49,518 bases of DNA from Rhodospirillaceae bacterium (GTDB taxonomy: Bacteria; Pseudomonadota; Alphaproteobacteria; CACIAM-22H2). The notes under the pieces are model-generated. The model was given only the letters and a program-made list of their open reading frames with translations, was not told the DNA's origin and made no database searches. This document shows positions 9,426 through 30,633 of the stretch, in pieces. The position numbers and the translations under genes were made by a program. The stretch covers positions 1-49,518 of the forward strand of contig JALHMR010000037.1 in the NCBI GenBank assembly GCA_022843945.1, given 5' to 3'. Every line of letters starts with the position of its first letter. Position 1 is the first letter of the stretch.

Positions 9426-9643
9426 GGCCATCCTCTCGTCGTTGAGATCCCCGACGCCGAGGTGTGTCGGTAGACGAGAGGCATTATGCGCTCCAGTCTG
9501 CGCTTCCACGAGTGGGCTGGATCACATGCTCAAGCCATTGTAAGGATTAGAAAAACCGCCGCTTCGTAAGCGCCCCTGCGGGCGACAGGGTTAATCATTC
9601 ATTCAGCATTTCCGGGCACATTCCGGTATCCGCGACCTCCGGG

Positions 9644-14595
<4,952 letters not shown>

Positions 14596-14599
<4 letters not shown>

Positions 14600-15366
14600 G
14601 TTCCGCCGAAGCTCTGGACCAGCGAGCCGGCGACCAGATACCAGCCGTCGACCAGCACGAAAAAGATCAGCTTGAAGGGCAGGGAGATCATGCTCGGCGG
14701 CAGCATCATCATGCCCATCGACATGAGGATCGAGGCGATCACCATGTCGATGACCAGGAACGGCAGGAAGAGCAGGAAGCCGATCTCGAAGGCGCGGCGC
14801 AGCTCGCTGATCATGAAGGCCGGGATGAGGACGCGCAGCGGCATGGCCTCCGGCCCTTCGACCGGCGGCAGGGCGGCGATATCGGCGAAGAGGCGCAGAT
14901 CCTGCTCGCGGACGTGGCGCATCATGAAGGCGTGAAACGGGCGGATCGAGCGCTCCAGCGCCTCGGTCTCGGTGATCCGGTTCTCGATCAGTGGGGCGAT
15001 GCCCTCGCGATACGCGGTCTCGGCGGTCGGCGCCATGATGAACAGCGTGAGGAACAGCGCCAGGCTGACGACGACCGTGTTAGGCGGCGTGGTCTGCAAG
15101 CCGATGGCGCTGCGCAGGAACGAGAGCACGACTACCAGGCGGATGAACGACGTCACCATGACCAGGATCGAGGGTGCCAGGCTCAGCACCGTCATCAGCA
15201 GGAAGAGCTGAACGATGCGGCCGGTCGAGGTCCCGCCATCGCCGAGATCGAGGGTGAAGCTCTGCGCCAGCCCCGGGCTCGCCCAGAGCAGGGCGAGGCC
15301 GGCGGTAAAGCTGGCGACGAAAGTGAGTGCGGCGCCGAAGGCCGCGCGCTTGAAGGTCTGGGTCAT
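14596..15366 (-). CDS. fliP: Flagellar export gate protein FliP
   Basis: 256 residues with a cleavable signal-like N-terminus and four membrane helices typical of FliP. Family patterns are clear: LVMVTSFIRLVVVLSFLRSAIGLQ, the long periplasmic loop ending in RVLIPAFMISELRRAFEIGFLLFLPFLVIDMVIASILMSMGMMML (quoted in pieces: PAFMISELRRAF and VIDMVIASILMSMGM), and SLPFKLIFFVLVDGW. FliP forms the core pore of the flagellar type III export gate with FliQ and FliR, both encoded on the opposite strand nearby. Its ATG overlaps the fliO stop by four bases (ATGA), indicating translational coupling in a four-gene minus-strand operon. Confidence 0.97.
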
Positions 15367-15680
15367 CGCTCGCCGTTGGTGATGGCGCGTAACGCGGTCG
15401 GCGCGGCTTCCGCCGGCCTGGCGGGAATGTCGGCCTCGACCACCGTGGTGCTGGCCGGCCCGATCACCAGCAGGTGCTCGCGGTCGTCACGCCGCACCAG
15501 GACGAGGCGCGACTTGCCGTCGAGCGCCGCGCTCTCCACGACGCCGAGCCGGCGGCGGCTGGTGGGGCCGATGGTGCCCGTATTGAGATAGCGGCGCGCC
15601 ACCCAGGCGACCCCGCCGATCAGCAGCAGGACGAAGCCGAGGGCGGCGACGAACCGGGCGAGCATCCACAGGTCGATCAT
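15363..15680 (-). CDS. fliO: Flagellar biosynthetic protein FliO
   Basis: 105 residues starting at ATG 15680 (MIDLWMLARFVAALGFVLLL). A single N-terminal membrane helix is followed by a small basic beta-rich cytoplasmic domain (RRRLGVVESAALDGKSRLVLVRRDDREHLLVIG in pieces: LGVVESAALDGKSRLVLVRR). The pattern matches FliO, a scaffold that helps assemble the FliP pentamer. Placement directly before fliP with a four-base ATGA overlap supports the call. A longer frame exists upstream (to 15839), but it overlaps the preceding gene and lacks FliO features. Confidence 0.88.
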   Translation of the reverse strand: MIDLWMLARFVAALGFVLLLIGGVAWVARRYLNTGTIGPTSRRRLGVVESAALDGKSRLVLVRRDDREHLLVIGPASTTVVEADIPARPAEAAPTALRAITNGER

Positions 15681-15994
15681 GGGCGACCGAGCTGGAAGGG
15701 AAAGATGCGCGCCCCGGGATTGCGCCGCATGGCGGCCCACACTGCCGCGGCCAGATCGTCGAGCGCGTTGTTGAGGCGGCCGAGATCGTCGACCAGGGTC
15801 TGTGCCTCGGCGGGCGGCAGGGTCTCGACGGCCCGGCACAGCGCGCCGATGCGCCCGTCAAGCTCATCGAGCAGGATCTCTTCCCCGGCGCCGACCGCCG
15901 CGCGGGCCTCGGTCAAGGCGGCGGCCTCGGCGTCGATCCGGCGGCGGAGGTCGCCGAGGTCGAGGTTGCCGGGAGGCGTGGCGCGCGAGTTCAT
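15677..15994 (-). CDS. Small helical protein of the fliOP operon, unknown function
   Basis: 105 residues, almost all alpha-helical and rich in Ala, Leu, Asp and Arg (LRRRIDAEAAALTEARAAVG, LVDDLGRLNNALDDLAAAV), with no signal peptide or membrane segment. It overlaps fliO by four bases and the upstream flhX-like gene by four bases, so it is translated as part of the flagellar operon. A chaperone- or FliT-like regulator of export is a guess from size and composition; no motif confirms this. Confidence 0.65.
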   Translation of the reverse strand: MNSRATPPGNLDLGDLRRRIDAEAAALTEARAAVGAGEEILLDELDGRIGALCRAVETLPPAEAQTLVDDLGRLNNALDDLAAAVWAAMRRNPGARIFPFQLGRP

Positions 15995-16368
15995 GGCCGC
16001 CCCATCGCGGCGGCGTGGGGGGCCGGCGGCGCCGGATTCCGCGTCCGGTAGACGTAGGAGAGGATCTCGGCGACGGCGACGAAGGCTTCCACCGGGATCT
16101 GGGTCTCGAGCTCCACGGCCGAGAGCAGCTGCACGAGATCCCGATCCTCGCGCACCGACACACCGTGGTCGCGCGCCAGGGCCAGGATCTGTTCGGCGAT
16201 ATCGCCTTCGCCCTTGGCGACCACGCGCGGCGCCGGATCGGCCTTGCGGTCGTAACGCAGGGCGACGGCGCGGCGCTTGTCGTCGCCGGGATCGGGGCGT
16301 TGGAAGGGGGGGCGGGGGGCCACGGAGGTGCTTTTGCGAGGGGGTTCCGGGACTCGGGGGAGGGTCAA
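15991..16368 (-). CDS. FlhB C-terminal-domain protein (FlhX-like)
   Basis: 125 residues if started at TTG 16368; GTG 16323 is an alternative. After a proline-rich leader, residues 32-110 match the FlhB/YscU cytoplasmic domain just after the NPTH cleavage site (RRAVALRYDRKADPAPRVVAKGEGDIAEQI, seen here as AVALRYDRKADPAPRVVAKG), ending in VPIEAFVAVAEILSYVY-type sequence. It has no NPTH and no membrane part. In other bacteria such free FlhB-C paralogs (FlhX) can replace the cleaved half of FlhB in the export switch. A full FlhB is encoded at 19021, so both are available. This is the first gene of the minus-strand flagellar operon. Confidence 0.8.
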   Translation of the reverse strand: MTLPRVPEPPRKSTSVAPRPPFQRPDPGDDKRRAVALRYDRKADPAPRVVAKGEGDIAEQILALARDHGVSVREDRDLVQLLSAVELETQIPVEAFVAVAEILSYVYRTRNPAPPAPHAAAMGRP

Positions 16369-16450
16369 GAATTGTAGCGGACCGGTCGCGCCGGCGCTTA
16401 ACCCGTGCGCGGCGCGACGCGGCCGTTTCCTCTAATTTTACCTATTACGC

Positions 16451-16465
16451 TTAAGATTCGCTTAA
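16451..16465. promoter_or_regulatory. CtrA box, perfect TTAA-N7-TTAA
   Basis: TTAAGATTCGCTTAA is an exact match to the CtrA consensus of alphaproteobacteria. It lies inside an 11-bp-spaced direct repeat of CGCTTAAG (16448-16455 and 16459-16466). It sits about 83 bp upstream of the flhX-like gene and about 208 bp upstream of flgB. Confidence 0.6.
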
Positions 16466-16504
16466 GTGCCGGGCGAGCCGCCGAGGTCTGAAAAATATTG
16501 TATT

Positions 16505-16519
16505 TTAAACAATGGTTTA
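16505..16519. promoter_or_regulatory. Second CtrA-like box, TTAA-N7-TTTA
   Basis: TTAAACAATGGTTTA matches the CtrA consensus at 7 of 8 specified positions, about 154 bp before flgB. Together with the perfect box 40 bp away it suggests paired CtrA sites controlling the divergent operons. Confidence 0.4.
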
Positions 16520-16672
16520 TAGAGGGTTTCCGGGCGGCGGTCGGGGGAGCAGAGGCGGGTGGCAGATTGATTCAGTTTTACTAATTTTTAATGCGTATGC
16601 CGGTAATCTTGGCTGTCGAAAAACCAAAGGCCGAGGCCGGGCAACCGGACCATCGGCCGAAACCGGACTGAG

Positions 16673-17089
16673 ATGGAGTTTCTGAGACAACCGCTCTTCG
16701 CGATGATCTCGCAGCGCCTGGGCTGGCTGACCGAACGCCAGAAGGTGCTGTCCGAGAACGTCGCCAATGCCGACACGCCCGACTACAAGGCGCGTGACGT
16801 CAAAGAGCTCAGCTTCCAGCAGATGCTGCGCGGCTCGACGCACTCGCTTGCCGCGGCGCGCACCTCCAGCAATCACCTGACGTCGGGCAGCTCGCAGCGC
16901 GGCTTCGGCCCGAACGACCTGTCCCGCGAGAAGCAATACGAAACCACCCTGTCCGGCAACTCCGTGACCCTCGACGTCGAGCTGATGAAGGTCTCGCAGA
17001 CGGCGCAGGATCACCAGATGGCCACCCAGCTCTATCGCAAGCACCTCAACCTGTTCCGCACGGTCATCGGCCGCGGCGGCGGCGGCTGA
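16673..17089 (+). CDS. flgB: Flagellar basal-body proximal rod protein FlgB
   Basis: 138 residues starting at ATG 16673. The N-terminus contains the rod/hook-family signature LSENVANADTPDYKARDV, and the middle and C-terminus (GNSVTLDVELMKVSQTAQDHQMATQLY-type, ending in a long helix) match FlgB. It forms part of the proximal rod in the periplasm and is exported through the flagellar type III system. It heads the plus-strand operon flgB-flgC-fliE-fliQ-fliR-flhB and lies downstream of the CtrA-type boxes. Confidence 0.96.
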   Translation: MEFLRQPLFAMISQRLGWLTERQKVLSENVANADTPDYKARDVKELSFQQMLRGSTHSLAAARTSSNHLTSGSSQRGFGPNDLSREKQYETTLSGNSVTLDVELMKVSQTAQDHQMATQLYRKHLNLFRTVIGRGGGG

Positions 17090-17107: not shown

Positions 17108-17518
17108 ATGGATCTCTCCAAGGTGATGATGATCTCGGCTTCGGGCATGTCGGCGCAGACCATGCGCCTGCGGACCATCGCCGAGAACCTGGCCAACGCC
17201 GAATCGCTGGGCGAGACGCCGGGCGCGCAGCCCTACGCGCGCAAGCTGGTGACCTTCAAGAACGTCCTGGACAAGAATCTCGGCGCCCACAAGGTGAAGA
17301 TCGACAAGATCAGCAAGGATCCGGCCGAATTCCAGAAGCGCTTCGATCCGCAGCATCCGGCCGCCGACAAGGACGGCTACGTGCTGACCCCGAACGTCAA
17401 CTCGCTGATCGAGCTCATGGACATGCGCCAGGCCCAGCGCAGCTACGAAGCCAACCTGTCGGTCATCGAAGTCTCGAAGAGCATGGTGGCGCGTACGCTC
17501 GACATTCTGCGCGGCTGA
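17108..17518 (+). CDS. flgC: Flagellar basal-body rod protein FlgC
   Basis: 136 residues from ATG 17108 with GGGAG upstream. FlgC signatures are present: SASGMSAQTMRLRTIAENLANAESL near the start, GYVLTPNVNSLIELMDMRQAQRSYEANL-type sequence near residue 100 (seen as GYVLTPNVN and MRQAQRSYEANL), and the terminal helix with KSMVARTLDILRG. It is a proximal rod subunit assembled after FlgB, 18 bases downstream of flgB. Confidence 0.97.
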   Translation: MDLSKVMMISASGMSAQTMRLRTIAENLANAESLGETPGAQPYARKLVTFKNVLDKNLGAHKVKIDKISKDPAEFQKRFDPQHPAADKDGYVLTPNVNSLIELMDMRQAQRSYEANLSVIEVSKSMVARTLDILRG

Positions 17519-17549
17519 ACCTCATAAACGATAGTCAGGACCCGGACCC

Positions 17550-17855
17550 ATGTCAGTCACCCTCGCCAATGTCGCCGCGACCTACGCCCAGATGCAGAAG
17601 GCCGCCGTGGCGCCCGGCATGGAGGCGCGCTCCGGGGCCTCCGATTTCAGCAAGCTGGTGAGCCAGGCGGCGGAGTCCACGGTCAACACCATGAAGCAGG
17701 GCGAGGCGGCCAGCGTGCTCGGCCTGGCCGGCAAGATCGACCTGTCGCAGGTGGTCACGGCCGTGTCCAACGCCGAAGTGACGCTGCAGGCGGCGGTTGC
17801 GGTACGCGACAAGGTCGTGCAGAGTTACCTCGAAATCCTGCGCATGCCGATCTGA
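17550..17855 (+). CDS. fliE: Flagellar hook-basal body protein FliE
   Basis: 101 residues from ATG 17550, with AGGA upstream. The C-terminal half matches FliE (VVTAVSNAEVTLQAAVAVRD followed by KVVQSYLEILRMPI). FliE joins the MS-ring/export gate to the rod and is the first rod component exported. It sits between flgC and fliQ in the usual order. Confidence 0.96.
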   Translation: MSVTLANVAATYAQMQKAAVAPGMEARSGASDFSKLVSQAAESTVNTMKQGEAASVLGLAGKIDLSQVVTAVSNAEVTLQAAVAVRDKVVQSYLEILRMPI

Positions 17856-17907
17856 TTCGGGCGCTCGCCGCGAATCGCCGGCGCGGGCTGGAGGAGGCTT
17901 CCGGCCG

Positions 17908-17943
17908 ATGACCGCGTCACAACCGACTTTCGCCGGCCCATGA
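17908..17943 (+). CDS. 11-codon leader ORF coupled to fliQ
   Basis: ATG 17908 is preceded nine bases upstream by a near-perfect Shine-Dalgarno GGAGGAGG (17891-17898) and encodes MTASQPTFAGP. Its TGA stop shares bases with the fliQ ATG (ATGA at 17940-17943). fliQ has no ribosome site of its own nearby, so this minigene probably delivers ribosomes to fliQ by reinitiation. The start and coupling are inferred from sequence layout only. Confidence 0.4.
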   Translation: MTASQPTFAGP

Positions 17944-18215
17944 ACGCCAACGACTTCATCGAGATCTCGCGTGAAGCGATCTGGGTGATGCTCAAGCTCG
18001 GCGGCATTCCGATGCTCGCCGGCCTGGCCGTCGGCGTCATCATCTCGCTGATCCAGGCGCTGACCCAGATCCAGGAGATGACCCTGGCCTTCGTGCCCAA
18101 GATCATCACCCTGTTCGTGGTCACCATCCTGGCGCTGCCCTTCATGATCGACATCATGGCCGGCTTCACCAACGAGGTGATGCAGCGCATCGCCGGCATC
18201 GGCACCGCGGGCTAG
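17940..18215 (+). CDS. fliQ: Flagellar export gate protein FliQ
   Basis: 91 residues with two membrane helices. FliQ family sequence is clear (FIEISREAIWVMLKLGGIPML, GVIISLIQALTQIQEMTLAF, PKIITLFVVTILALPFM). FliQ packs around the FliP/FliR pore in the inner membrane. Its ATG overlaps the stop of an 11-codon ORF carrying the only good ribosome site in this gap. Confidence 0.97.
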   Translation: MNANDFIEISREAIWVMLKLGGIPMLAGLAVGVIISLIQALTQIQEMTLAFVPKIITLFVVTILALPFMIDIMAGFTNEVMQRIAGIGTAG

Positions 18216-18233
18216 GCCGGGCGCGGCGCGGCG

Positions 18234-19016
18234 ATGTTCGCTACCTTCGAGCAATGGCTGACGGCGGAGGCCTTCGCCGCCTTCCTGGTCTTCGCCCGGG
18301 TGGGTGCGGCCGTCGCTCTGCTGCCAGGTATCGGCGAAGTCTACGTCTCGACGCGCATCCGGCTGATCTTCGCGGGCGGCCTGGCGCTGCTCCTGGCGCC
18401 GGTGGTGCGGGCCCAGCTGCCCGTCGAGCCCGGCACGCCGGTGGAGCTGCTGATCCTGCTGGCGACCGAGATCGGCATCGGCATCTTCATCGGCAGCGCC
18501 ACGCGCATGACCCTCAACGCCCTGCAGACCGCCGGCGCCATCGTCGGCATGCAGACCAGCCTTTCGGCGGCGATGGCCTTCGATCCCTCGACCGCGCAGC
18601 AGGGCGCCCTGACCGGCTCGTTCCTCGGCGCCGTGGCCCTGATCGTGATCTTCGCCGGCGACTTCCATCACCTGATGATTCGCGCCATCGCCGATTCCTA
18701 CACCCTGTTCCCGCCGGGCGAGACCTGGCCGGTCGGCGACTTCTCGCGGGTCATGGTCCAGCTCGTGGCGTCGAGCTTTTCGCTCGGCGTGCGCATGGCC
18801 GCGCCGTTTATCGTCTTCGGCGTCGTGTTCTTCCTCGGGCTGGGCCTGCTGGCCCGCCTGATGCCGCAGATGCAGGTCTTCTTCGTCAGCCAGCCGGCCC
18901 AGATCCTGCTCGGCCTGATGCTGCTGGCCGCCACGCTGGTCGCCTCGATGCTGGTGTTCATCAACAGCTTCGAGGACACGATGGCGATGTTCATCGCGCC
19001 TCCTCCGGTCCGGTGA
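18234..19016 (+). CDS. fliR: Flagellar export gate protein FliR
   Basis: 260 residues with about six membrane helices, beginning MFATFEQWLTAEAFAAFLVF. The FliR pattern is evident: RVGAAVALLPGIGEVYVSTR, the EIGIGIFIGSATRMTLNALQ-type region with GAIVGMQTSLSAAMAFDPST, and LGLLARLMPQMQVFFVSQPA. FliR completes the FliP-FliQ-FliR export pore. It starts 18 bases after fliQ and ends four bases before flhB, so the three are one transcript. Confidence 0.97.
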   Translation: MFATFEQWLTAEAFAAFLVFARVGAAVALLPGIGEVYVSTRIRLIFAGGLALLLAPVVRAQLPVEPGTPVELLILLATEIGIGIFIGSATRMTLNALQTAGAIVGMQTSLSAAMAFDPSTAQQGALTGSFLGAVALIVIFAGDFHHLMIRAIADSYTLFPPGETWPVGDFSRVMVQLVASSFSLGVRMAAPFIVFGVVFFLGLGLLARLMPQMQVFFVSQPAQILLGLMLLAATLVASMLVFINSFEDTMAMFIAPPPVR

Positions 19017-19020
19017 GAGC

Positions 19021-20151
19021 ATGGCCGAAGACACCGACGATTCCTCCAAAACAGAAGACCCAACGGCAAAACGCCAGTCGGAAGCGCGTGACAAGGGCCA
19101 GGTCGGCAAGTCGCGCGAGATCGATCACTGGATCATGCTGTTCGCGGCGACACTGGCCATCGTCATCTTCGGCCCGAACATGGCCTCGGAGCTGCGGCGG
19201 ATCCTGATCTTCTATCTGGAGCTGCCGCACGCGATCGCGGTCGATCGCAACGCCTTGCCCCTGATCCTGCTCGGCCTGTCGCTGGAGATGGGCCGCGTGC
19301 TGGCGCCGATCGCTGGGCTGCTGATCATCGCGGCGATCGGTTCGGGCATCGTCCAGCACGGCCTGCTTTTCTCGCCGTCGATGCTGCAGCCCAAATTCTC
19401 GAAGATCTCGCCGATGGCGGGCTTCAAGCGCATCTTCTCGACCCGCGGCCTCGTCGAGTTCGCCAAGGGAGCCCTCAAGCTGGCGGTCATCGGCACTTTC
19501 GCCTACTGGCTGCTGCGCGACGATTTCGACCGGCTCGAGAAGTTCATCATGATCGACCACACGCAGACGCTGCAGCTGACGCTGGGTCTGTCTCTCAAGC
19601 TGCTCATCGGCGTGCTGTCGATCCTGGCGATCATCGCCATCCTCGATTTCAGTTTCCAGAAGTACCAGACCTGGCGCGACATGCGCATGACGCGCGAGGA
19701 GGTCCGCGAGGAGTACAAACAGGCGGAAGGCGATCCCATCGTCAAGGGACGCCTGCGCCAGTTGCGCCTGGAGCGTGCGCGCCGCCGCATGATGGCGGAG
19801 GTGCCGAAATCGGACGTCGTCATCACCAACCCAACGCACTTCGCCGTCGCCCTCAAATACGACCAGAGCACGATGGCGGCGCCCAAGCTGGTGGCCAAGG
19901 GCGCCGATCTGGTGGCGCACAGGATCCGCGATCTTGCCGCCGAGCATAACGTGCCGATCGTCGAGAACCCGCCGGTTGCGCGCGCCCTCTATGCGGCCGT
20001 CGACCTCGACCGGGAAGTCCCGCCCGAGCACTACAAGGCGGTGGCTGAGATCATCGGCTACGTGATGAAGCTCAAGAAGGGGCAGGTGGCGACGCCGCCC
20101 AAGCCGCGCGACGAGACCTACGCGGGCGAGGATCCCACCGCCCCGAACTAG
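19021..20151 (+). CDS. flhB: Flagellar export switch protein FlhB
   Basis: 376 residues. The basic N-terminus (SSKTEDPTAKRQSEARDKGQ) and four membrane helices are followed by the cytoplasmic domain with the autocleavage motif NPTH (VVITNPTHFAVALKYD). FlhB cleaves itself between Asn and Pro and switches export from rod/hook to filament substrates. The C-terminal tail (RDETYAGEDPTAPN) is short. A second, membrane-free FlhB-C homologue is encoded at 15991-16368. It ends the plus-strand flagellar operon and converges with the epimerase-like gene 28 bases away. Confidence 0.97.
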   Translation: MAEDTDDSSKTEDPTAKRQSEARDKGQVGKSREIDHWIMLFAATLAIVIFGPNMASELRRILIFYLELPHAIAVDRNALPLILLGLSLEMGRVLAPIAGLLIIAAIGSGIVQHGLLFSPSMLQPKFSKISPMAGFKRIFSTRGLVEFAKGALKLAVIGTFAYWLLRDDFDRLEKFIMIDHTQTLQLTLGLSLKLLIGVLSILAIIAILDFSFQKYQTWRDMRMTREEVREEYKQAEGDPIVKGRLRQLRLERARRRMMAEVPKSDVVITNPTHFAVALKYDQSTMAAPKLVAKGADLVAHRIRDLAAEHNVPIVENPPVARALYAAVDLDREVPPEHYKAVAEIIGYVMKLKKGQVATPPKPRDETYAGEDPTAPN

Positions 20152-20179
20152 TTCTGCGGCCGGCCGCTGGGCCCCGGGC

Positions 20180-21016
20180 TCAGTCGATCCGTGAGGGATC
20201 GCCGGTGAAGTTGTGCGCGCACACGCTGCCGCCGTGGAAGATCGCCGCGATCTCGCCGCCGGGCGTGGCCTTGCCCTCGAGCTCCGCCGCCCAATTCTCG
20301 CCGTTGTCCTCCGGATTATAGCCGATATGGGCGCGCGCCTTGGCGTCGCCGCCCCAGAGCGCGCGCTTGTTGTTGGAGACGCCGTAGAGGACGAGGAAAT
20401 GGAAGGACGGCGCCTCGACGCATTTGCGGGCGAGCTGCGCCATGTCGCGGTGGCTGATCCAGCCGCCGAGCTCGCGCGCATTGCCCGGCTTGGCGCGGAA
20501 GGCGCCGATGCGTAGGGCCGCCACCTCCATCCCGTGCTTGTCGGCGTAGAGCCGGCCCATATGCTCGCCGAACACCTTGGAGAGGCCGTAATGCCCGTCG
20601 GGCCGCAGCAGCACGTCCGGGCCGACCGGAATGTCGGCGCGGTAGAAGCCGATCACGTGGTTGGACGAGGCGAAGATGAAGCGCCGCACGCCGGCCTTGC
20701 GGGCCGCTTCGAACATATTGTGGGTGCCGACGACGTTGGTGGTGAGGATCTGCTCCGGCGTACCGCCGGTCTCGCGCGGTATGCCGGCGAGGTGGATGAC
20801 ACAGTCGACGTCCTTCATCGCCGTGTCTGCGATGCCCGGCGCGATGAGATCGCCGGCCAGGACCTCTTCATCCGCCGCCGCGCCTTCCACGGGGCGGATG
20901 TCGTGCCAGCGCAGCCTGTCCGCTGACCCGCGCAGGGCCGGACGCAGGACAGAGCCGATCTCTCCCGCCGCCCCGGTGAGGAGGAGACGCTTTGGGCGGT
21001 TCATATTTTGTGGCAT
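20180..21016 (-). CDS. NAD-dependent epimerase/dehydratase family, uronate-dehydrogenase-like
   Basis: 278 residues from ATG 21016, which has AGGTG six bases upstream; an in-frame ATG at 21034 lacks this. It is a short-chain dehydrogenase/epimerase: the Rossmann motif LLLTGAAGEIGSVLRPAL, the catalytic Ser in FASSNHVIGFY and the Tyr-x3-Lys pair in HYGLSKVFGE. The SSNHVIGFY segment and the short length resemble uronate dehydrogenase, which oxidises glucuronate or galacturonate with NAD+. It lies downstream of a Bug-type binding-protein gene on the same strand, which fits uptake and use of a sugar acid. Substrate assignment is inference. Confidence 0.75.
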   Translation of the reverse strand: MPQNMNRPKRLLLTGAAGEIGSVLRPALRGSADRLRWHDIRPVEGAAADEEVLAGDLIAPGIADTAMKDVDCVIHLAGIPRETGGTPEQILTTNVVGTHNMFEAARKAGVRRFIFASSNHVIGFYRADIPVGPDVLLRPDGHYGLSKVFGEHMGRLYADKHGMEVAALRIGAFRAKPGNARELGGWISHRDMAQLARKCVEAPSFHFLVLYGVSNNKRALWGGDAKARAHIGYNPEDNGENWAAELEGKATPGGEIAAIFHGGSVCAHNFTGDPSRID

Positions 21017-21035
21017 CGGATCACCTGCATACAAC

Positions 21036-21114
21036 GTGTCATGCCCGCGGAAGCGGGCATCCAGGATTCGTGCGCGCTGGTGGCCCTGGACCCCCGCTTT
21101 CGCGGGGGTGACGA
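21036..21114. repeat. Palindromic intergenic repeat (REP/BIME-like)
   Basis: Two hairpins in opposite order: ATGCCCGCGGAAGCGGGCAT (21041-21060) and CCCCCGCTTTCGCGGGGG (about 21091-21108), joined by about 30 bases and flanked by GTCATG/GTGACG. This layout is a common dispersed repeat in GC-rich proteobacteria, recognisable by its translation PRKRAS...TPAFAGV. It sits between the two minus-strand genes and may attenuate transcription into the downstream one. Confidence 0.75.
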
Positions 21115-21146
21115 CCTTGATTGTGTCTAGAGGAACGTCGCGCTGC

Positions 21147-23372
<2,226 letters not shown>

Positions 23373-23396
23373 CCGCCCTGTGGTAGATTTGAGGGC

Positions 23397-25241
<1,845 letters not shown>

Positions 25242-30558: not shown

Positions 30559-30633
30559 AGCACATCCACTTCCTGGCCAAGCCCTTCAGCCTCGATCAGC
30601 TCGCCGGCAAGGTCAAAGAGGTCATGCGCTAGA
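30559..30633 (+). pseudogene. Duplicated cckA tail, right copy of the direct repeat
   Basis: Bases 30559-30630 repeat cckA 25168-25239 with one silent change and preserve the frame (HIHFLAKPFSLDQLAGKVKE then VMR), followed by TAG instead of TGA. No start or upstream kinase domain remains. It is either the displaced original cckA end or an attR-like copy of an integration site. Confidence 0.85.

Follow-up and report, generated by a model that had tools for sequence, protein, structure and literature searches.

Two early flagellar promoters that point away from each other and are each activated by CtrA bound at a separate −35 site very probably occupy the 349-bp intergenic region (positions 16324–16672) between two divergent flagellar gene units in the window, i.e., the whole stretch of 49,518 nucleotides analysed here. 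The predicted sites are two CtrA-type boxes, box 1 for the leftward unit and box 3 for the rightward unit (Table 1), and these form the conserved pair as far as can be judged from aligned relatives. CtrA-type control of both units, which an earlier note on this DNA had proposed, is well supported by comparative evidence for the predicted sites. In the proposed mechanism, CckA and ChpT would phosphorylate CtrA; phosphorylated CtrA would bind box 1 and recruit RNA polymerase leftward for transcription of flhX, the 105-aa ORF, fliO and fliP, and it would bind box 3 and recruit RNA polymerase rightward for transcription of flgBC-fliE-fliQR-flhB. We infer CtrA binding, activation, the transcription starts and the dependence on CckA.

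Gene Units Flanking the Intergenic Region

The rightward unit is organized as the earlier note described it, with flgB followed by flgC, fliE, fliQ, fliR and flhB. The leftward unit had been given as fliOP; it begins instead with a gene for a protein that resembles the C-terminal domain of FlhB, labeled flhX here, which is followed by a 105-aa ORF and only then by fliO and fliP. FlhX scored 89 bits against TIGR00789, which is under the cut-off of 117.35, and its start codon is uncertain, with position 16368 as a possible alternative. Matches to the 105-aa ORF at 30–43% identity were found in 9 of the 100 loci searched. For fliO, a longer version starting at position 15839 is possible.

Table 1. 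Coordinates of genes, CtrA-type boxes and predicted promoter elements in the window
Feature	Position	Strand	Remarks
fliP	14596-15366	(-)	PF00813, 267 bits
fliO	15363-15680	(-)	PF04347 above cut-off; TIGR03500 49.2 bits, cut-off 55.25
105-aa ORF between flhX and fliO	15677-15994	(-)	No NCBIfam match
flhX, FlhB C-terminal-domain-like, first leftward gene	15991-16323	(-)	C-terminal part of PF01312, 73.9 bits
Predicted -10, leftward promoter, TAAAAT	16435-16440	(-)	Placed by position relative to box 1 and by the mapped promoters of PMC6180460
Direct repeat CGCTTAAG, period 11, contains box 1	16448-16466		Copies at 16448-16455 and 16459-16466
Box 1, perfect TTAA-N7-TTAA, TTAAGATTCGCTTAA	16451-16465	(-)	Proposed CtrA site, leftward flhX/fliO/fliP unit
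Box 2, one mismatch, TTAAACAATGGTTTA	16505-16519		Middle box
Box 3, TTTAC-N6-TTAA, TTTACTAATTTTTAA	16577-16591	(+)	Proposed CtrA site, flgB unit
Predicted -10, flgB promoter, TAATCT	16604-16609	(+)	Placed by alignment of flgB-side boxes and by PMC6180460
flgB	16673-17089	(+)	PF00460; TIGR01396 69.1 bits, above cut-off
flgC, fliE, fliQ, fliR, flhB	17108-20151	(+)	Pfam
cckA-like hybrid histidine kinase	23397-25241	(+)	PAS, HisKA, HATPase_c, REC

CtrA-Type Boxes in the Intergenic Region

Both boxes named in the earlier note, a perfect TTAA-N7-TTAA box and a second one that is one base off and about 40 bp away, are present as boxes 1 and 2, with a gap of 39 bp between them. Box 3, which is 111 bp from box 1 and differs from TTAA-N7-TTAA by one mismatch, had been missed. 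The window contained 1 perfect box, compared to 0.04 expected, and 4 of 100 shuffles equaled this number; 5 matches with at most one mismatch were found, compared to 0.40 expected, and this was equaled by none of the 100 shuffles. Three of these five sites fall in the intergenic region, whose GC content is 0.562 vs. 0.671 for the window. When the intergenic region alone was subjected to 5000 dinucleotide shuffles, a perfect box appeared in 1.8% of them, and at least three boxes with no more than one mismatch appeared in 0.36%. Thus, the window's own sequence is suggestive of CtrA sites, not conclusive.

The direct repeat around box 1 has the reported period of 11 bp. The accompanying argument, that the period places both half-sites on one face of the DNA, merely restates the N7 spacing: as 4 + 7 bases are built into any TTAA-N7-TTAA box, the period adds no extra evidence. 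Elsewhere in the window, a one-mismatch box is found at positions 9591–9605, and a large predicted gene (positions 9665–14599) whose end resembles a hybrid kinase starts about 60 bp downstream of it; this box ranked third with the matrix described below.

Conservation of the Boxes in Relatives

The loci compared were obtained from a flgB search of 23 genomes of the family (own genome included) and from the FliP loci of named genomes (best 80). Among the resulting 100 loci (L011–L110), flgB was divergent from flhX, fliO or fliP in 74, to which the window was added to give 75 regions; the other 26 loci were dropped because flgB was unmatched or matched weakly, or because no divergent partner lay within 1500 bases. 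Perfect TTAA-N7-TTAA boxes were found in 40 of the 75 regions, while perfect half-site pairs at each of the other spacings (3–6 and 8–12) were found in 1 to 4. After similar regions were grouped, the perfect N7 box was present in 27 of 49 clusters, compared to 0 to 3 for the other spacings, and the flhX-type clusters alone showed the same tendency (8/26 vs. 0 to 1). By perfect boxes in the 75 regions, the N7 spacing is therefore preferred at the orthologous promoters. At one mismatch, N6 and N7 were found in 16 and 15, respectively, of the 26 flhX-type clusters; this N6 count is partly a matter of register, because TTTAC-N6-TTAA also reads as TTAC-N6-TTAA. Of the flhX-type N6 sites, 16/22 have a half-site in common with an N7 box, and an N6 site without such overlap occurs in 6 clusters. 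The other spacings were used as control because the reversed sequence, AATT-N7-AATT, proved unreliable for this purpose: AATT and TTAA differ in background frequency, and the count of AATT-N7-AATT exceeded that of the box in 16 of the 23 family genomes.

Each of the 17 loci of the family that have a close flgB contained at least two boxes with no more than one mismatch, where 0.7 was expected; as 11 of them form one similarity cluster, they represent about 7 independent cases. Among the named relatives with the divergent layout, 35 of 57 had a perfect box (1.0 expected), and 12 of 57, including Aestuariispira, which headed the FliP search, had no box at one mismatch or less. A matrix search of these 12 loci revealed no clear box; the best scores were reached by 11 of 200 shuffles for L031, 19 for L039 and 21 for L042. 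The box arrangement is common among the relatives, not universal. Conservation in relatives, which the earlier note had named as a check on its two boxes, holds in part for box 1 and, in a comparison by eye, fails for box 2.

Boxes 1 and 3 Form the Conserved Pair

The site on the flgB side had the form of box 3, TTTAC-N6-TTAA, in 16 of the 17 family loci, and a second site is found on the flhX side, as is box 1 in the window. We built a matrix of 41 positions from 51 relatives (18 of flhX type and 33 others), leaving the window out. The flgB-side site met the rule for the matrix in 52 of the 75 regions, and as the rule requires a box, the matrix favors boxes by construction. When both strands of the window were scored, box 3 ranked first (17.4, forward strand) and box 1 second (16.4, reverse strand), which are the orientations expected for flgB and flhX, respectively. 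The sequence downstream of these two boxes fits the matrix only moderately, with tail percentiles of 0.73 and 0.89. These comparisons point to box 1 (leftward) and box 3 (rightward) as the conserved pair; the pairing of boxes 1 and 2 proposed in the earlier note was rejected, as the relatives and the matrix both favor boxes 1 and 3.

It is improbable that boxes 1 and 2 constitute a single shared CtrA platform acting jointly on both promoters. Both boxes do lie in the AT-rich middle of the region, and the box part of box 2 alone scores well (14.5 and 15.8 on the two strands); its full-matrix scores are, however, only 1.9 (forward) and 3.6 (reverse), and the sequence downstream of it is poor as a promoter on either strand, with tail percentiles of 0.17 and 0.20. 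Inspection by eye found no positional ortholog of box 2 among the regions of the relatives. One candidate ortholog, TTAAACATTGGTTTA of L018, was dropped, as its flanks resemble, by eye, those of box 1. Moreover, the boxes keep to their own genes when other sequence intervenes: in L015, the two boxes are separated by a gene of about 288 codons located between flhX and flgB, and in L069 they are separated by additional sequence, yet each box is still near its own gene. This argues for two independent sites. Box 2 is probably accessory or fortuitous.

Predicted Promoter Elements

In R. sphaeroides, the mapped CtrA promoters are described as having their start 23 or 24 nt past the box and an A at −11 (PMC6180460). 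Such an A is present at the expected place for both promoters of the window, for which the predicted starts are at about 16427 (leftward) and 16615 (rightward), the downstream fit to the matrix being moderate in both cases. Among the relatives, an A at −11 was found in 12 of 18 flhX-type and 27 of 33 other regions. A G at −4 was found in 23 of the 33 other regions; because it is rare in the flhX group (3/18), it was not used as evidence of a promoter. From the boxes of the own genome, 23 oriented candidate promoters were picked by hand; of these, 9 had A at −11, 10 had G at −4 and 5 had both. The downstream part fails to separate true sites among these candidates. A standard sigma-70 scan of the intergenic region gave no hit, which decides nothing, because promoters that depend on an activator bound at −35 would be expected to give none.

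CtrA sites are reported to serve for repression as well as induction (PMC11264516), and box 2, for instance, could be a repressor site for the leftward unit. We give little credence to repression of one promoter by CtrA, as the positions of boxes 1 and 3 both match the distance from which activation is described in R. sphaeroides and Caulobacter (PMC6180460). That all the boxes are chance matches in AT-rich sequence to which CtrA does not bind is very unlikely: the frequency of a perfect box in shuffles of the region and the box-less named relatives would fit it, and the spacing-specific conservation and the boxes in every one of the 17 family loci speak against it. Activation of each of the two promoters from its own box is the reading we prefer.

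Another element of the flgB promoters is an inverted repeat, GGCA-N5-TGCC, which in named relatives among L043–L109 lies over the predicted −10, at positions 25–37 from the start of the box. An exact copy was found in 21 of 33 relatives outside the flhX type and in none of the 18 flhX-type relatives; the flgB promoter of the window matches it at 5 of 8 positions, as judged by eye. This dyad is possibly a repressor site, perhaps for FlbD, and we conjecture that it is linked to the ftr site.

CtrA Relay Genes and Boxes Across the Genome

The genome encodes CtrA, ChpT-like, CckA-like and FlbD proteins. CtrA scored 393 bits against its model (cut-off 350), though the protein given lacked its first residues, and FlbD, whose gene adjoins fliN and flhA, scored 771 bits (cut-off 750). 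The ChpT-like protein was above the Pfam cut-off and below the NCBIfam cut-offs. For the CckA-like protein, the best NCBIfam model was CckA, with a score of 671 bits that is below the curated cut-off of 1000; the next best match in the genome scored 302 bits.

The box 3 form, TTTAC-N6-TTAA, occurs at 7 sites in the 5.38-Mb genome, three of which precede fliI, flgB and cheA by 72 to 97 bp. Two others are upstream of unnamed genes, one is inside a called gene and one has no gene nearby. At L188 and L187 (G000 contig C15), ctrA and fliI are arranged divergently, and chpT lies just before cheA, with a TTTAC-N6-TTAA site in each of these gaps; FliI was above its cut-off, while CheA was the best model for a fragment that scored below the cut-off.

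Perfect half-site pairs number 26 at N7, 16 at N6 and 9 at N8 genome-wide, which is a modest enrichment of N7, and perhaps about half of the 26 perfect boxes are background. Outside the window there are 25 perfect boxes, and no called gene contains any of them in full. The neighbors of these boxes were obtained with a simple codon-usage gene caller, and 30 of the neighboring proteins, not every one, were scanned against Pfam; two boxes (L114 and L127) have no gene start within 210 bases, and some of the other called starts belong to ORFs of fewer than 60 codons. The neighbors identified included motA, two MCP genes, a HAMP-domain gene, a DUF1217 gene, a pilus-type gene and two PAS_5 genes, as well as genes without evident link to motility, such as those for citrate synthase, an FGGY kinase, DctP, a methyltransferase and a MarR regulator.

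In the 23 family genomes, perfect pairs summed by hand were 202 at N7 and 96 at N6. Among the matches listed, which may miss weak CtrA fragments, a close CtrA (at least 82% identity) was found in 16 of the 18 family genomes that have a close flgB, counting the own genome and one fragment, and in 1 of the 5 without; the two flgB-bearing exceptions without a listed close CtrA are G005 (83% complete) and G014 (86% complete). For G022, which belongs to the same genus as the own genome, there was no flgB match, no listed close CtrA and no excess of N7 over N6 (7 against 10).

cckA and Its Distance from flhB

The earlier note placed cckA about 7 kb from the boxes, and a CckA-like gene is indeed found there. 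Its nearness has meaning as a remnant of the flhB-cckA adjacency found in some relatives; it is not proof of regulation here. In the window, three genes at positions 20152–23396 (two reversed, followed by an adenosine deaminase gene) separate flhB from cckA. In 5 of 15 family loci (L140, L141, L143, L148 and L150), which belong to four other genera, the gene directly after flhB matches CckA and begins 14 to 184 bases further along, and a CckA match lies 60 bases after flhB in Caulobacter segnis (L110). The other 10 family loci, all of one genus, had no CckA match in the stretch examined. The count covers the 15 family loci, as most named loci end too near flhB.

We conjecture that cckA was once under the flgB promoter as well. 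It is possible, and we suggest it only tentatively, that in relatives CtrA bound at the box 3 position would drive its own kinase by read-through, that this loop has been cut here by the three genes, and that GGCA-N5-TGCC would be the off-switch, possibly through FlbD.

A 72-bp repeat with one mismatch is found at the 3′ end of cckA (positions 25168–25239) and again 5.4 kb downstream (positions 30559–30630). Genes resembling those for the small and large subunits of terminase and a pair resembling a toxin-antitoxin system lie between the two copies. The stretch has the appearance of an element that integrated at the cckA end; among the ten proteins scanned, no integrase was found.

Comparison with Known Systems

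The fla2 genes of R. sphaeroides are described as having two divergent promoter regions, flgB2p-fliI2p and fliL2p-fliF2p, and an independent CtrA site for each promoter of flgB2p-fliI2p was shown with mutants and ChIP (PMC6180460). The region studied here resembles it in having divergent flagellar promoters, one of them that of flgB, and a site near −35. It differs in the partner of flgB, which is fliI in R. sphaeroides and an FlhB-C-terminal-like gene with fliO and fliP here, and in spacing, as both functional sites of flgB2p-fliI2p are reported to depart from the consensus (PMC6180460). Moreover, CtrA-dependent expression and ChIP are reported for R. sphaeroides, while the region here is known from its sequence.

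In Caulobacter crescentus, fliQ and fliF are described as early flagellar promoters activated by CtrA (PMC3930126, PMC6180460). The CtrA site at the −35 of early flagellar genes is a shared feature, and FlbD is encoded in both genomes; the gene pairs are different, and FlbD is reported to repress fliF via ftr4 in C. crescentus (PMC3930126, PMC6180460). An association of the CtrA relay genes with flagellar genes is described for Rhodospirillum rubrum (PMC12363192), where, by that description, ctrA, chpT and cckA are located amid genes for flagella or chemotaxis. This compares with the arrangement here, in which ctrA is paired with fliI, chpT with cheA, and cckA is downstream of the flgB-flhB unit, from which three genes separate it. 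CtrA is also reported to control flagellar genes in all orders studied, including Rhodospirillales (PMC8116508). Our literature searches, which were not designed to prove absence, found no paper on an flhX-flgB region. The region studied here is a further example of the known arrangement of CtrA at divergent flagellar promoters, with a flhX-flgB pair that differs from that of R. sphaeroides.

These results extend the CtrA architecture of independent sites to an alphaproteobacterial family outside the well-studied models, with the exact boxes given. Where flhB and cckA are adjacent, as in some of the relatives, a testable feedback of CtrA on its own kinase is suggested, and the finding as a whole agrees with motility as the old role of CtrA.
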